This document shows positions 7,291 through 59,852 of a DNA stretch of 64,000 nt, piece after piece. Location of the stretch: assembly GCF_019209905.1 (NCBI RefSeq), contig NZ_JAHUTM010000001.1:1-64000 (forward strand). Reading direction: 5' to 3'. A program made the translations under genes and the position numbers. The notes under the pieces are model-generated. The model saw only the letters and a list, made by a program, of their open reading frames with translations, was not told the DNA's origin and ran no database searches. The DNA is from Corynebacterium sp. TAE3-ERU12. Its GTDB lineage: Bacteria > Actinomycetota > Actinomycetes > Mycobacteriales > Mycobacteriaceae. How positions within the stretch are numbered: the first letter of the stretch is position 1; every line of letters begins with the position of its first letter.

Positions 7291-8769
7291 CTAGGGGTCG
7301 GGGCTGGCGCTGACGAAACGGGACATATTGAGCTGTGCGACCACCCGCACTGTTGTCAGCGGTCCACCGCGGTGCTTGGCGATGATGATGTCCGCATCTG
7401 GCGACTCGCTTTCATCTTCACCGGGCTGAGAGCTGGGCCGGTAGAGCAGCAGCACGATATCGGCGTCCTGCTCCAGCGAACCGGACTCACGAAGGTCGGC
7501 GATCTGGGGGCGCTTATCAGTTCGGGTCTCCGGGCCACGGTTGAGCTGGGAGATGGCGATAACCGGCACCTCGAGCTCCTTGGCCATGAGCTTGAGGTTT
7601 CGGGAGAACTCGGCGACCTCCTGCTGACGTGATTCGACCTTTTTGCCGGAGCTCATCAGCTGCAGGTAGTCCACCACGATGAGGTCGAGGTCGTGTTCGC
7701 GTTTGAGCTGCCGGGCTTTGGAGCGGATCTCCATCATGGTGAGGTTCGGCGAGTCATCAATGAAGAGATTCGCTTCGCTCCACTTCCCCAGTCCCTCGAC
7801 GAGGCGGCTCCATTCAGTTTCGGTCATCCTGCCGGCGCGCATATTGGCCAGTTTGACCTTCGCTTCTGCCGAAAGGATGCGCATCATGATCTCGGACTTC
7901 GACATCTCCAGGGAGAAGATGACGGAGGTTTTGCCGTGGTGGATGGATGCGGCGCGCATGAAGTCGATGGCCAGCGTGGACTTACCCACACCAGGGCGCG
8001 CGGCGATAATGATCATCTGCCCGGGGTGTAGGCCATTGGTGACGTTATCGAGGTCAACGAAGCCGGTGGGGACACCGTGGGCCAGGCCGCCGTCTTGTTC
8101 GATGGAGCGCAGCTCGAGCATTGTCGGCTCTAGCAGGTCTTCCATGCGGGCGTAGTCGTCGGCTTGCTCCGCGCCGGTGAGGTCAAAAAGTTCCTGTTGG
8201 GCGGCGTCGACTAATTTTTCGGCCTCGGTATCTTCTTGGCCTGCGTAGCCCATTTGGACAATGCGGGTGCCGGCGTCGACGAGGCGGCGGATAAGGGATT
8301 TCTCTGCGACGATGCGCGCGTAGTAGTGCGCGTTGGCCGCGGTGGGCACCATGGCGGTGAGTGTGTGCAGGTATGGTGCGCCGCCGATGCGTTCCAGGTC
8401 GCCGGATTTTTCCAGTCGGTTGGCGACGAGCAGCGGGTCGGTTTGGGCGGAGTCACCGTAGGTGGCGATGATCGCGTTGTAGATGGCCTGGTGTGCGGGC
8501 CGGTAGAAATCCTCGGCCTTGACCAGTGAGTACACGTCGGCGACTACGGAGTCACTGAGCAGCATTCCGCCGAGTACGGCCTGTTCGGCTTCGATATTGT
8601 GCGGTGGTCGGCGGTCGAAGTTAGTGGAGCCGCCGGCACCGGGGCGTGGGGCGCTGCTGTAGTCGTCGTGTGGGTAGCCGGAGTCTTCTGGTGGCGGTGG
8701 AACGTCGGCGTAGTTGCTGCCGGTGTAATCGGGGCCGTCGAATGGCCGACTACTTCCTGGGCTCGTCAT
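7291..8769 (-). CDS. dnaB: Replicative DNA helicase DnaB
   Basis: A 492-residue hexameric 5'-3' fork helicase. Residues 1-50 are a Pro/Gly-rich extension. The N-terminal domain starts at PPHNIEAEQAVLGGML and interacts with DnaG primase in known family members. The RecA-like ATPase carries Walker A ARPGVGKST and Walker B LIVVDYLQLM. Length is normal and there is no intein, unlike M. tuberculosis DnaB. It follows a 642-bp non-coding stretch with a DnaA-box cluster. A minus-strand TAGCAT (8831-8836) is a weak candidate -10. Loader partner in actinobacteria is DciA, encoded at 45771. Confidence 0.97.
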   Translation of the reverse strand: MTSPGSSRPFDGPDYTGSNYADVPPPPEDSGYPHDDYSSAPRPGAGGSTNFDRRPPHNIEAEQAVLGGMLLSDSVVADVYSLVKAEDFYRPAHQAIYNAIIATYGDSAQTDPLLVANRLEKSGDLERIGGAPYLHTLTAMVPTAANAHYYARIVAEKSLIRRLVDAGTRIVQMGYAGQEDTEAEKLVDAAQQELFDLTGAEQADDYARMEDLLEPTMLELRSIEQDGGLAHGVPTGFVDLDNVTNGLHPGQMIIIAARPGVGKSTLAIDFMRAASIHHGKTSVIFSLEMSKSEIMMRILSAEAKVKLANMRAGRMTETEWSRLVEGLGKWSEANLFIDDSPNLTMMEIRSKARQLKREHDLDLIVVDYLQLMSSGKKVESRQQEVAEFSRNLKLMAKELEVPVIAISQLNRGPETRTDKRPQIADLRESGSLEQDADIVLLLYRPSSQPGEDESESPDADIIIAKHRGGPLTTVRVVAQLNMSRFVSASPDP

Positions 8770-8883: not shown

Positions 8884-9230
8884 CTTTCCCCAGTTTTCCC
8901 CGAAGTTATCCACAGTCGGTGTGGACAGTTTTGTGGACAACCTTGGGGCGTTGTGTGAACAACTGATGAATGCCCAGGTCGCTTGCCGACGGCGGCGCCT
9001 GGCGGGCGCAACACTCACCCCCGCGACCTGCATGAACTCATCATCTGTGCAGGTAGGAGGCTATTTTTGGCCGGGGAGTGTGATCAAAACCGCAATTGCG
9101 AATGCCATTCGTACACACGTCCCAACAGATACGGATTAACCTTTGGTTGAACCTTATGTTCACCAAATGGTCGTGAACAGCACAAACTCAGAACCAGTTA
9201 CCCACAGTTTTTCCACAGTGGTTGTCCACT
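8884..9230. promoter_or_regulatory. DnaA-box cluster between rplI and dnaB
   Basis: This gene-free stretch (8770-9411) contains matches to the DnaA box TTRTNCACA: TTATCCACA at 8906-8914 (+), TTGTCCACA at 8932-8940 (-) and TTGTTCACA at 8954-8962 (-). One-mismatch sites are CTGTCCACA at 8920-8928 (-), TTACCCACA at 9198-9206 (+), TTTTCCACA at 9209-9217 (+) and TTGTCCACT at 9222-9230 (+). They form two groups about 240 bp apart, 32 kb from dnaA. Control of dnaB by DnaA, or DnaA titration, is inferred. Confidence 0.65.
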
Positions 9231-9313
9231 ATGGGATCGGGGTTTGTCAACCCCCCTGCGCACACCGGTGTGTAGCCGTTTGAAACTACCTGGCAGGGGT
9301 CGGTTAAGCAGAT

Positions 9314-35421: not shown

Positions 35422-36543
35422 TTAGTTTTTCTCGTGGATGAGCGACATAATGCGCTCGAAATCTTCCAGATCGCCGAACTCAATCACAAGCTTGCCCTTT
35501 TTCTTGCCCATAGTCGCGGTGACTCGAGTATCGAACTCATCGGAGAGCTGGTCTGCCCAGGCGGTGAGCTTTTTTGGCTGCGGGGCAGGCTCACGCTTGG
35601 TGGGGGCTGGTTTCTCCCCGTCGCGGTTGAGCAGGGTGACCGCTTCTTCGGTGGCACGCACCGAGAGTCCTTCGGCGATAATGCGCTCAGCTAACCGCTC
35701 TTGGATATCAGCGCCACCCTTGACACCGAGGAGCGCACGGGCGTGACCTGCTGAAAGCACACCGGCGGCAACGCGGCGCTGCACCGGTACCGGCAGTGCA
35801 AGCAGGCGGATCATATTGGTAATCACTGGACGGGAGCGGCCAATACGGTCTGCCAGCTGGGCCTGGGTGACACCGAATTCATCAAGCAATTGCTGGTAGG
35901 CAGCTGCTTCTTCCAAAGGGTTCAGCTGCACGCGGTGGATATTTTCCAGCAGGGCATCGCGCAGCATTGCCGAGTCGTCGGTTTCGCGGACGATTGTCGG
36001 CAGGTTTTCTAGCCCAGCAATCTGTGCGGCCCGCCAACGCCGCTCGCCCATGATGATCTCATATTCGGGCTGCGGGGCATCGGGGTTCTTCTCCCGGGCG
36101 AGCTCTAAAGCCTTGGGCCGTTTTGCGCGCGGAATATGTCGGACAACGATCGGCTGCATAAGTCCGAACTCACGGATGGAGTGCGCGAGTTCATTAAGCG
36201 GCTCATCGTCAAAGACCTGGCGCGGCTGTTCCGGGTTGGGGGAGATGATCGGGACCGGGATTTCCCGGTAGGTGGCCCCCATCGAATCACGGCCACGCGG
36301 CGCTGATGTTTCACGTGAAACATTCTTCGTCGGTTGCTGGGTGGATGTTTTTGTACCGTCACCGTGACGAATTGGGCCGCTGGTATGGGTAGGGCCAGAG
36401 TCGCCCTTGGATCGCGATTGTGACGGCCCAAAAAGCTCATCGGCTGCTGACTGACCCAAACCCGGTCGGGCTTCGGCGGCTGTAGGAATCAGCGCTGCCA
36501 GGCCACGCCCCAAGCCACCCTTGCGCGGTTCTTTGTGTTCCAT
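35422..36543 (-). CDS. parB: Chromosome partitioning protein ParB
   Basis: A 373-residue CTP-dependent DNA clamp that loads at parS. Residues 1-90 contain [13 protein letters not shown] (ParA-interacting N-terminus) and a disordered stretch; the CTPase region has [13 protein letters not shown] and [12 protein letters not shown]; the helix-turn-helix lies at [24 protein letters not shown] with GHARALLG downstream; the C-terminal dimer domain ends [10 protein letters not shown] perfect parS lies inside the gene and encodes part of NVSRETS in the linker. It is 48 bp downstream of parA in the same operon. Confidence 0.97.
36307..36322. promoter_or_regulatory. parS site 1 (inside parB)
   Basis: Perfect 16-bp palindrome TGTTTCACGTGAAACA, the consensus ParB-binding site, located within the disordered-linker codons of parB. 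Confidence 0.95.
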
Positions 36544-42954: not shown

Positions 42955-43337
42955 TTGTCACCTGGGCTTTTCCTGGTGCATAACTTGTCAACGCAGCTGT
43001 GAATAACTGTTGAACTGTTGTTAGTTTCCGCGCCGGCGAGAAGTTATACACATCCAGCGCTATTTATGCACAGCCTGTGCACCGCGGTGTGAACACATCG
43101 CCACGCTGTGCGACCTGGGCTTGTGTGAGATCTCCACAGTGTGCACACCCCCTATTACTACTTCCCACTAGATCTACTCATCACTCCAAAGAACAAAAGG
43201 GTGTGTGGATGGAGCGCGAGAACGCTTCCCGCATTGCCTGTCTCGGACCGCACCTGGCCCTGTCGGTTTACGCAGTCTGGGCTAAGCTGGGTGGATATTG
43301 AGACGTAGTGCGCAGACGTGCGCACAGTGGAGGGATA
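42955..43337. other. oriC: Origin region, dnaA-dnaN intergenic part
   Basis: Exact DnaA boxes: TTATTCACA at 42998-43006 (-), TTATACACA at 43044-43052 (+), TTATGCACA at 43064-43072 (+). A one-mismatch site is at 42976-42984 (-). This is the position of the functional origin in mycobacteria. A TAAGCT at 43283-43288 is a possible -10 for dnaN. Confidence 0.8.
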
Positions 43338-44528
43338 ATGACTGACGACATCGTGCAGGTCCGCGCGGCCAAGGATCAGCTTGCCGACGCTGTGGCTTGG
43401 GTGGCGCGTAGTTTGCCGACCCGACCGACCCAGCCCATCCTTCGGGGCATGGTTTTTGAAGCCACTGATGATGGCCTAGATATCGCCGGCTATGACTATG
43501 AGGTATCTACCCAGGTCAGCATCCCTGCCGAGGTCGTTGAGACCGGTAAATTTGTGGTCAACGGCAAGGTCATGTCCGAGATCATCTCGAAGATGGCTGA
43601 CCAGCCGATTGATATCCGGTGCGAGGACGGCAAGGTCCATATTTCGTCGGGTTCGTCGAAATTCCGCTTGCCGACGATGACGCTCGAGGATTACCCCGAG
43701 ATGCCAACCCCGCCGGCAAATACCGCCACCATCGACCCGCATGTGTTTACCGAGGCCATCGGCCAGGTTTCTGTGGCCGCCGGTAAGGATGACACCCTGC
43801 CGATGCTGACCGGTATCCGCATGGAGGCCGAGGACAATAAAGTCACCCTCGCCGCCACGGACCGTTTCCGTCTGGCTGTGCGCACTTTTGAATGGGAGGC
43901 CACGACCTCCGAGCGCACTGAGCTGTTGATCCCGGCTAAGACGTTGGCCGATACTGCCCGCAGCATTGACCTGCACACCTCGGGCCCGGTGAATATCGCT
44001 GTTGGTGATGGTTCTGATGGCAGCCCCGTCGGCGGTGACGGCCTGCTTGGTGTGCTGCGCGATAAGCGCACCACCACCACCCGCCTGCTGGAAGCGGACT
44101 TCCCGAAGTTCCGCCCGCTGTTGCCGAAGGAGCACTCGGCTGTGGCCTCGGTGGAGATCGAGCCGTTGCGGGAAGCTATCCGGCGTGTGTCGACTGTTGC
44201 TGACCGTAGCTCCCAGGTGCGCATGGACTTCTCCGACGGCCAGCTGCGCCTGTCCGCCCAGGCTGAGGAAACCGGCAGCGCCGAGGAGATCATCGATTGT
44301 GCTTTTGTCGGTGAGCCGCTGCTCATTGCCTTCAACTCGGGGTATCTCACTGATGGGCTCAGCCAGATTCACACCCCGCGTGTGGTGATGGGCTTTACCC
44401 AGCCGTCACGCCCGGCGATTTTGGTGCCCGAGCCTGATGAGCTGCCCGAAGCTAATGATGAGGGCATGTTCCCTACCCCGGACACGGAGTACACCTACCT
44501 GCTGATGCCCGTGCGTCTGCCGGGTTAA
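43338..44528 (+). CDS. dnaN: DNA polymerase III beta sliding clamp
   Basis: A 396-residue clamp with three similar domains. Conserved stretches include RSLPTRPTQPILRGMVFEA, LPMLTGIRMEAEDNKVTLAATDRFRLA and the terminal YLLMPVRLPG typical of DnaN. AGGG stands just before the ATG at 43338. It is the first gene of dnaN-recF-dciA. It tethers polymerase III to DNA and recruits other repair factors. Confidence 0.98.
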   Translation: MTDDIVQVRAAKDQLADAVAWVARSLPTRPTQPILRGMVFEATDDGLDIAGYDYEVSTQVSIPAEVVETGKFVVNGKVMSEIISKMADQPIDIRCEDGKVHISSGSSKFRLPTMTLEDYPEMPTPPANTATIDPHVFTEAIGQVSVAAGKDDTLPMLTGIRMEAEDNKVTLAATDRFRLAVRTFEWEATTSERTELLIPAKTLADTARSIDLHTSGPVNIAVGDGSDGSPVGGDGLLGVLRDKRTTTTRLLEADFPKFRPLLPKEHSAVASVEIEPLREAIRRVSTVADRSSQVRMDFSDGQLRLSAQAEETGSAEEIIDCAFVGEPLLIAFNSGYLTDGLSQIHTPRVVMGFTQPSRPAILVPEPDELPEANDEGMFPTPDTEYTYLLMPVRLPG

Positions 44529-58111: not shown

Positions 58112-58157
58112 TTTTCCTCCACAGGGCGTACCGGTTGGCCCGGTAGCGTTGGGGTCC

Positions 58158-58895
58158 ATGGCAGGACCCCAGCAGCGCAGTGGACTGCGCGCCCATTTTG
58201 ACCGCGCCCCGATAACGGTGGCGCTGATTGCCCTCGCCGTCGTGGTGTACTTCATCACGGCGGCATTATCCGGCTCCTTCGCTGAGAATCTGTCTTCAGC
58301 GGAGGTAGCCGGTTTTTCGATCTATGGCCCCGGTATGTGTGCCGGGTGGTTTGCCCCATTGCGACTGTTTACGGGTCCGCTTTTGCATATTGGGCCGGGT
58401 CATTTGTTGTCCAACATCATGCTGTTGGGTTTGGCTGCACCACAGGTGGAGCGGTTTTGGGGGTCGCTGCGGTATTCGCTGATGTTGGTGGTGTGCGCGG
58501 CGGCGTCGTCGGTGGCGGTGTTGTGGTGGACTCCGCTGAGTCCGACGGTGGGGCTGTCCGGGGCGGTGTTGGGTATGTGGATGGTGCTGGGTGCGCAGTT
58601 CGCGTTGGTGGATCGGCAATTATTGCGCCCGATTGCTGTGTTGGTGGTGGTCACCCTTTTGATGCCGGTGGTAGTGCCGAATGTGTCGTGGTCGGGCCAT
58701 CTTGGGGGTTTGTTGGCCGGGTCTGCGGTTGGTGCTGGTTGGGCTGCGGTGTTGACGGGGCGGTTCGGCGCTGGTGGTTCTGGGGCTGCTGGCCGACGTT
58801 TTCGGCTTTATGCGGTCCTTGCCGTGGTGGCTGGTGCGGTGGCGATAGCGGCTGTGGCGTGGTGGTTGGTGGGGCCGATCTGTGGCACGTACTAG
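58158..58895 (+). CDS. Rhomboid family intramembrane protease
   Basis: A 245-residue protein with about six or seven membrane helices. The catalytic Ser is in VGLSGAVLG (GxSG) and the His in WSGHLGGLLAG; GHLLSNIMLLG is the conserved His-x-x-x-Asn helix. Rhomboids cut membrane proteins within the bilayer; the substrate is unknown. TAGCGT (58144-58149) ends 8 nt before the ATG. Confidence 0.9.
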   Translation: MAGPQQRSGLRAHFDRAPITVALIALAVVVYFITAALSGSFAENLSSAEVAGFSIYGPGMCAGWFAPLRLFTGPLLHIGPGHLLSNIMLLGLAAPQVERFWGSLRYSLMLVVCAAASSVAVLWWTPLSPTVGLSGAVLGMWMVLGAQFALVDRQLLRPIAVLVVVTLLMPVVVPNVSWSGHLGGLLAGSAVGAGWAAVLTGRFGAGGSGAAGRRFRLYAVLAVVAGAVAIAAVAWWLVGPICGTY

Positions 58896-59582
58896 CTAAG
58901 ACCTTCAATGTTCACTTGAGGGGATAAGTGGGGGTAGTGGCTTTCCACATGGTTGATAATTGGGGGCCGCTGGATTCCCCGTCATGTGGAAAAAGTCCCA
59001 GTAGTTGTGCACAAGCCGTCCACACTTTATCCACCGGGTTATGAACACCGCCGCTCAGTTATTCACTATCCACATAGTTGTGCACAGCTGTGGATAATCC
59101 CATTGTTGTAATTTCCGGAACTATGTACGAACAGCGGGAAAACATGCCGGATACGGCCTCGGGCTGCGTCTGACACACATCTATGTAACTTGTGCACAGG
59201 GTTATCAACAGCATGTGGACAAGGTTGAAAGTCTATTTCCGGCATCATCCACCACCTTCATCCACCGACTGTGGATAACTCTCTGGCCCCTCAGGCCGCC
59301 GATGGGGAAAAGTTATCCACCGGTTATCCCCAGCGGTGTGGGCAGTGTTGTTCACTTTATGACCAAGGGCAATCCCCAACACCGGTTGGTTGAGTATGGG
59401 AAACGGGGGGAGGGTAGCGTCGGAAAGCCACCCCCAATGCCGCGCGATGTTCCACCCGTAGCTAAACCGTGTTCGACTTAGCAGGTGAGAGGACTGCGCC
59501 AACTATCCACAGCGGCATGAGGCAGCAAAAAACCGCCCGAAGATAAACTCTCCGAGCGGCTAAAAGCGGTGCGGGCGGGCTG
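58896..59582. promoter_or_regulatory. Dense DnaA-box array, non-coding
   Basis: A 687-bp gap without a credible gene. Exact TTRTNCACA sites start at 59005 (+), 59078 (+), 59089 (-), 59190 (+), 59214 (-) and 59270 (-). One-mismatch sites start at 58985 (-), 59027, 59059, 59066, 59202, 59313, 59324, 59348 and 59503 (all +). Two TTGTGCACA sites are near-palindromes. This is the highest density in the window, exceeding the dnaA intergenic regions. Confidence 0.8.
59527..59559 (-). terminator. crgA terminator
   Basis: On the minus strand CCGCTCGGAG pairs with CTTCGGGCGG (with G-U pairs) around a 7-nt loop and is followed by six T. Confidence 0.8.
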
Positions 59583-59852
59583 CTAACGCCAACCCATGGT
59601 CATCAGCAGACCAATGATGAACAGGCCGAAGCCAATCAAGAAATTCCAGGCGCCCAGCTCCACCATGAACGGGATGTGCGGGCCAGCGATGTAGTTGACG
59701 ACCAGCCACAACATGCCGATGGCCATCAGGCCGAACATCACAATCTTGTACCACAGGGGCGTGGATGTGGTGTTGATCTTGACCGGGGTGCGGCTAATTC
59801 CGCCGCCACCGGGCGCGTTATCAGCGTTGTAGTCGACCTTTGCCTTGGGCAT
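59583..59852 (-). CDS. crgA: Cell division protein CrgA
   Basis: An 89-residue protein with two membrane helices (about 35-55 and 65-85) and N-terminus [15 protein letters not shown]. The ending [20 protein letters not shown] is the CrgA hallmark. CrgA links FtsZ/FtsI and division-site peptidoglycan assembly. The ATG at 59852 has GGAGG 7 nt upstream, favouring it over a start 25 codons earlier. Known context: next to pabA and pknB. Confidence 0.95.

Follow-up and report, generated by a model that had tools for sequence, protein, structure and literature searches.

A conserved DnaA-box element at the 3′ end of crgA in Actinomycetes, a putative site of DnaA titration or inactivation

The window, a stretch of 64,000 nucleotides from Corynebacterium sp. 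TAE3-ERU12 that was analyzed at its full length, contains a rhomboid gene and crgA separated by a 687-bp gap. The two flanking genes were identified by Pfam (Rhomboid and CrgA), which confirms the neighborhood given in the original prediction. Because the rhomboid gene (+) and crgA (−) are convergent and both point at the gap, the DnaA-box array within it lies 3′ of both genes. The array had been described as about fifteen box-like sites, six of them exact, in 530 bp. On both strands together, 58985–59511 contains seven exact DnaA boxes (TTRTNCACA); if one mismatch is tolerated, the number rises to 19, of which three pairs are palindromic overlaps, and the array thus comprises ~16 separate sites. 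The seven exact boxes include 59005 and 59006, which are one palindromic box seen from either strand. The distance to dnaN is about 15.6 kb, in agreement with the predicted 16 kb. Table 1 lists the parts of the locus.

The array is the densest 600-bp stretch for DnaA boxes in the window. The claim that its density exceeds that around dnaA also held, as the dnaA–dnaN gap has 3 exact boxes and 7 with at most one mismatch, and the rpmH–dnaA gap has 1 and 5, respectively. In 1000 dinucleotide shuffles of the 687-bp gap, the exact boxes averaged 0.05 (maximum, 1) and those with at most one mismatch averaged 1.3 (maximum, 5). The whole genome contains 74 exact boxes versus 28 matches to a reversed control pattern, and no other stretch in the genome-wide scan matched the exact-box density of the array. 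A search of the rhomboid–crgA gap for known RNA families gave no match up to E = 1. Between crgA and the array, there is a terminator-like hairpin; however, a consensus scan found three such sites in the stretch versus a shuffle mean of 1.2, so that this hairpin is weak evidence.

Table 1. Features of the rhomboid–crgA locus and the dnaA–dnaN gap in the window
Feature	Position	Strand	Details
DnaA-box array	58985..59511	both strands	7 exact, 19 with ≤1 mismatch
Left boxes, including palindromic TTGTGCACAA at 59005–59014	58985..59067		
Module 1	59066..59097	+	CTATCCACA (59066), TTGTGCACA (59078), inverted TGTGGATAA (59089)
Dyad adjoining module 1	59095..59112	+	p ≤ 0.01, profile trained on other genera
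Module 2	59190..59222		TTGTGCACA, TTATCAACA, inverted TTGTCCACA
Module 3 and right-hand boxes	59270..59332		inverted TTATCCACA (59270), TTATCCACC (59313), TTATCCCCA (59324)
Rhomboid gene	58149..58895	+	convergent with crgA; array near its 3′ end across the genus
crgA, cell-division protein CrgA	59583..59852	−	3′ end faces the array
Terminator-like hairpin between crgA and the array	59531..59561	−	13-pair stem, T-rich tail
dnaA–dnaN gap, presumed oriC, for comparison	42955..43340		3 exact, 7 with ≤1 mismatch

Module 1 is the counterpart of a core of two direct boxes and one inverted box that is found class-wide (see below); its spacers are 3 and 2, where the class core has 4 and 1. Compared with the class consensus T-n-ACA-N4-TGTAATT, only the right half of the adjoining dyad is well kept (TTGTAATTT at 59106–59114). 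Just 3′ of the rhomboid gene, a conserved block without boxes, TTCAATGTT...TTGAGGGG...GGGG (58903–58939), is recognizable in nine aligned loci.

Other sites in the window deserve mention. A second DnaA-box cluster (8904–9235; 3 exact boxes, or 10 when one mismatch is allowed; shuffle maximum, 5) lies upstream of a DnaB helicase gene (7291–8769, −). It contains the two best matches in the window (14.9 and 14.6 bits) to R1, a sequence model whose training set comprised three loci from Corynebacterium and 27 others. The core pattern also occurs ~1.4 kb from a dnaB gene in Propionibacterium cyclohexanicum (L217). The second cluster of the window is possibly a dnaB-linked counterpart of the crgA element. 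Four exact parS-like 16-mers, at 36307, 37671, 37708, and 38457, surround the parA/parB genes.

crgA was detected in 200 of the 201 Corynebacterium genomes. From the 200 genomes searched besides that of the window, we mapped 100 relatives, taken from the first 103 by crgA match (G140, G125, and G109 were skipped), and retrieved as much as 20 kb next to crgA from each. Since it was drawn from the top of the crgA listing, this sample is biased toward crgA genes resembling that of the window. A core profile was built from nine seed loci, the window included, and applied with a cut-off of E < 1e-4. It matched 73 of the 101 Corynebacterium loci (64 of 92 when the nine seeds are set aside), 58 on the plus strand and 15 inverted on the minus strand. 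Where the rhomboid gene was found, the midpoint of the profile match lies 135–700 bp beyond the point where the rhomboid match ends, with exceptions at 1.5–1.7 kb (L048, L071, L072, L084, and L098), and the element stays beside the rhomboid gene even when other genes intervene before crgA. The alignment of 34 chosen loci consists of fixed modules in the order of two direct boxes, an inverted box, TTACA-N4-TGTAATT, and two more box groups. R1 also recognized the element in loci closely related to the window that had no part in its training (L031–L034, L036, and L039–L041; 20–27 bits; 45 loci searched) and matched the inverted element of L058 and L083 with 49.9 bits. Such inversion in some relatives fits a site that acts on the DNA and not as a transcript. 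The densest array among the loci mapped, 17 exact boxes and 25 with at most one mismatch in 600 bp, is located ~2.4 kb left of crgA in L047 (G119).

The core profile had no match within the stretches of up to 20 kb in 28 of the 101 loci. Boxes are still present in five of these (L043, L044, L069, L091, and L095), L113 is a 464-bp fragment, and in L117 (G068), the triplet of boxes is ~20.6 kb from crgA, just beyond the fetched stretch. No array was found within the fetched stretch in 21 of the 101 loci, several of which have a rhomboid/ppiA–crgA gap of <200 bp. The presence and absence of the array require three parsimony changes on the dnaN tree, and the site is therefore not indispensable. 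Two features of the relatives were noted in passing: two groups (L062/L065/L066/L076 and L049/L050/L054) have gyrA on the minus strand, the reverse of its usual orientation, and dnaN appears split, with two in-frame TGA codons, at G106:C1:2285-3456 (L189), perhaps because of a frameshift or sequencing error.

Outside the genus, a triplet pattern, TTRTCCACA-N4-TTRTNCACA-N-TGTGGATA with up to two mismatches, was used. It matches 92 of 201 genus genomes, the genome of the window not being among them. Of 201 genomes of the family, 65 match, including 60 that belong to other genera, and the reversed control pattern had zero matches in these two overlapping sets. In 59 of these 60 other-genus genomes, the triplet is 21–305 bp 3′ of crgA, always on the strand opposite to it, and its distance from dnaN is 9–68 kb (55 measured). 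An exact-pattern scan of genome_contigs gave at least 120 loci. Among the at least 100 tiles with a detected crgA, the core is within ~115 bp of the crgA 3′ end in at least 94 and on the opposite strand in at least 99. Among the matches listed, seven tiles have ppiA or a rhomboid gene with crgA not found by profile, and 13 of 120 matches are elsewhere, in Propionibacteriaceae, a Clostridia bin, a Cytophagales bin, and others. Named carriers include Amycolatopsis, Rhodococcus, Pseudonocardia, Saccharopolyspora, Gordonia, Dietzia, Mycobacteroides, Streptomyces, Kitasatospora, and Micrococcus; in Streptomyces (L233) and Kitasatospora (L245), the core is 52 bp from crgA. In all loci in which both genes were detected, the element lies between crgA and a convergent rhomboid gene (71 of 71) or ppiA (79 of 79).

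The class-wide search with R1 matched 114 of 138 Actinomycete genomes, and CrgA was detected in 132 of the 138. For placement, 110 genomes were entered among the matches listed, and some lower-ranked matches of genomes already entered were left out. Among the matches listed, 91 of the 108 genomes with crgA have the composite core, i.e. two direct boxes, an inverted box, and the T-n-ACA-N4-TGTAATT dyad, at −6 to 246 bp from the crgA 3′ end. These 91 matches span 31 of the 39 families numbered and are the best of their genome in 81 cases, also among the matches listed. Many of the 91 listed are short and close to palindromic, and only 55 have the orientation opposite to that of crgA. The best match reached E < 1e-6 in 34 of the genomes listed, and 28 of these matches are at the crgA 3′ end; the six others include five of family f26. 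The members of this family with strong matches away from crgA (G514, G446, G411, G429, and G473) have small genomes. The comparison of the crgA gap that had been proposed across Corynebacterium therefore came out in favor of conservation, with boxes kept beside the same genes across genus and class and some Corynebacterium genomes without the array in the stretch. The array of the window itself gave at most 11 bits with R1, and the class-wide search found no match at E ≤ 0.01 in its genome. What ties it to the class core is the chain of genus loci, the position, and the dyad, and the window array is a derived and expanded form.

The dyad provides a link to the replication origin. It lies outside the search pattern, and 100 other-genus loci linked to crgA or ppiA/rhomboid share it in the form aaT-n-ACA-N4-TGTaATT. 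With a profile trained on 101 loci from other genera, the dyad was found in 58 of 70 Corynebacterium dnaA–dnaN gaps, two genomes being represented twice, and 49 of these matches are no more than 12 bp from a box; among the control pieces, 3 of 87 had it. It was present in 45 of 100 crgA flanks of 800 bp, a span outside which some arrays fall. In the window, the array carries the dyad at p ≤ 0.01, and the dnaA–dnaN, dnaB, and rpmH–dnaA gaps do not reach p ≤ 0.05 with this profile. In the displayed oriC forms, GTGTAATTACA-N4-TGTAATT follows the boxes in most cases; where these forms have GTGTAAT, the crgA form carries an inverted DnaA box. As the box triplet is joined to a dyad that also flanks the oriC boxes, the element is an oriC-like module outside the origin. 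MtrA is not favored as the protein recognizing the dyad because its motif is a direct repeat, whereas the dyad is inverted.

Here, we propose a function of the element based on these comparisons. This analysis establishes the boxes and their excess over chance, the conservation of the architecture, the placement of the element, and the oriC-shared dyad; that DnaA binds the element, that it is titrated or inactivated there, and that the timing of initiation is affected are inferences. The array is best explained as an ancient oriC-like site that probably titrates or inactivates DnaA and thereby restrains re-initiation, datA-like in function and not in sequence. Corynebacterium would have its own form of a cis-element that is ancient in the Actinomycetes, placed between a convergent rhomboid gene or ppiA and the crgA 3′ end and usually 10–70 kb from dnaA–dnaN. 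DnaA may assemble on the element as it does at oriC. Because the element would be duplicated early in each round of replication, the extra copy could bind DnaA, probably in its ATP form, at the expense of oriC. Such titration, either on its own or together with hydrolysis, would restrain re-initiation. In short, the element probably draws off DnaA and limits how often chromosome copying starts. Of the alternatives offered by the original prediction, the datA-like reservoir is thus the best supported as a way of working; membership of the datA family is not, as no match to E. coli datA was found.

A more far-reaching proposal, which we regard as unlikely, is that the element is a class-wide pseudo-origin at the crgA 3′ end. 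The inverted third box that replaces GTGTAAT would let DnaA assemble without opening the DNA, and read-through from crgA would clear DnaA from the site, coupling transcription of a division gene to initiation. If true, it would amount to a division–replication switch in a group thought to be without Hda and datA; for Mycobacterium tuberculosis, hda and datA are reported to be missing (PMC2607554).

Unwinding or a start of replication at the element is another possible meaning of the dyad common to it and oriC. Use as the main origin was ruled out in G156 because the cumulative GC skew, examined over 200 kb, reaches its lowest point at dnaA, with the array 66 kb away. The skew curve of G142 is flat over the region examined, and that of the window is mixed and does not reveal the place of the origin. 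Both G156 and G142 have exactly three DnaA-box clusters in 200 kb (500-bp score ≥ 8), located upstream of dnaA, between dnaA and dnaN, and at the crgA array. The predicted second origin element thus stands as far as the core shares the oriC dyad and falls as the main origin in G156. An accessory or backup origin, in which DnaA unwinds the dyad region and replication at times starts there, would agree with the combination of boxes and the same dyad as in the dnaA–dnaN gap, with the larger number of boxes in the array than in that gap of the window, and with the dnaA–dnaN gaps of L031 and L032, among the nearest to the window by crgA, which have no exact box. We nevertheless consider it distinctly improbable, given the skew minimum of G156, the inverted box occupying the GTGTAAT place of the displayed oriC forms, and the 21 of 101 loci without an array in the stretch fetched. 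Compensation for array loss by extra oriC boxes was not borne out. The exact boxes in the dnaA–dnaN gap numbered 6.6 in array-lacking versus 4.4 in array-bearing genomes (Mann–Whitney p = 5e-5; 19 lacking, 49 bearing), but this raw difference vanished after phylogenetic correction (p = 0.42; three changes). For this comparison, L147 (G068) was recoded as array-bearing since the triplet occurs elsewhere in its genome, the duplicates L161 and L164 were removed, and L151, L152, L159, and L171 were excluded for want of a detected dnaA (and, in L159, of dnaN as well).

A DARS-like site, which would help the nucleotide exchange of ADP-DnaA and so promote initiation, is more doubtful still. The core of the element has three boxes, as do DARS1 and DARS2 (PMC4585315); on the other hand, R1 matches none of the E. 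coli regions taken as DARS1, DARS2, and datA, the order and spacing of the boxes in the bioD–uvrB gap differ, and mutH–tas has only two one-mismatch boxes. This option of the original prediction is allowed yet unsupported.

The predicted control of crgA by DnaA was retained in part. As the array sits 3′ of both flanking genes, it is not the crgA promoter and promoter control was discarded. DnaA might instead form a roadblock between the convergent genes, or read-through from crgA or the rhomboid gene might evict DnaA, and either would couple division-gene transcription and DnaA. The position fits such a device, since the element is a few dozen base pairs past crgA in most placed genomes outside Corynebacterium and lies between convergent genes wherever both were found. 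There is also a precedent in E. coli, where read-through from glyV-X-Y controls IHF binding at datA (PMC10950094). In Corynebacterium, however, the element stays with the rhomboid gene, up to 9–10 kb from crgA (L070 and L122), and its distance to crgA is ~19 kb in L046 and L121, whose stretches do not extend to the rhomboid gene; we give this coupling even less credence than a DARS-like role. The least probable reading by far is an artefact of chance or composition, or a site of another protein, to which the dyad may belong, because the shuffles fall far below the observed box counts, the reversed control had no match in the genus and family genomes, and the position beside crgA recurs class-wide.

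How Actinomycetes restrain DnaA is poorly understood. The titrating or inactivating site preferred here, with a fixed architecture and fixed neighbors in 31 of the 39 numbered families among the matches listed, would be a general candidate for DnaA control, and it adjoins a division gene.

One of the closest known counterparts of the element is the Corynebacterium oriC in the dnaA–dnaN gap. Both have direct DnaA boxes followed by the dyad, whereas the crgA element has an inverted box before the dyad and is off the skew minimum in G156. In E. coli, datA is likewise a non-coding DnaA-box cluster outside oriC and downstream of a transcription unit, and differs in its neighbors. It has an IHF binding site between boxes; in the crgA element, the dyad might be a partner site. 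R1 had no match up to E = 10 in the datA region downstream of glyV-X-Y (L332), whose position was taken from PMC10950094. DARS1 and DARS2 share the core of three DnaA boxes with the element, and the bioD–uvrB gap differs from it in box order and spacing. The E. coli places used for DARS1 and DARS2 are those that we assume to hold these sites, and R1 found no match in them. Homology of the element to E. coli DARS or datA was therefore rejected. Among the Actinomycetes, the DnaA-box clusters near oriC of Streptomyces coelicolor were reportedly named H69, H24, and D78 by Smulczyk-Krawczyszyn in 2006, and the cluster with a demonstrated function is said to be D78, not H69. Cosmid H69 contains SCO3857, and we take crgA of S. 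coelicolor to be SCO3854; cluster H69 may be the same locus as the crgA element. The array resembles these clusters as a DnaA-box cluster within tens of kilobases of oriC in an Actinomycete. In PMC5742627 and PMC10950094, DnaA-box clusters are described as repressing untimely initiation in Bacillus subtilis and S. coelicolor, and those of S. coelicolor are called analogous to datA in this respect. B. subtilis, of another phylum, has several oriC-proximal clusters that restrain initiation (Okumura 2012, as cited in PMC10950094). The literature searched contained no paper pairing crgA with DnaA boxes and no description, for S. coelicolor or elsewhere, of a core of this kind across the class, of its dyad, or of a location at the crgA 3′ end. 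DnaA-box clusters outside oriC are known, and the features that are new here, within the literature searched, are the occurrence of the core throughout the class, the dyad that it has in common with oriC, and the position at the 3′ end of crgA.
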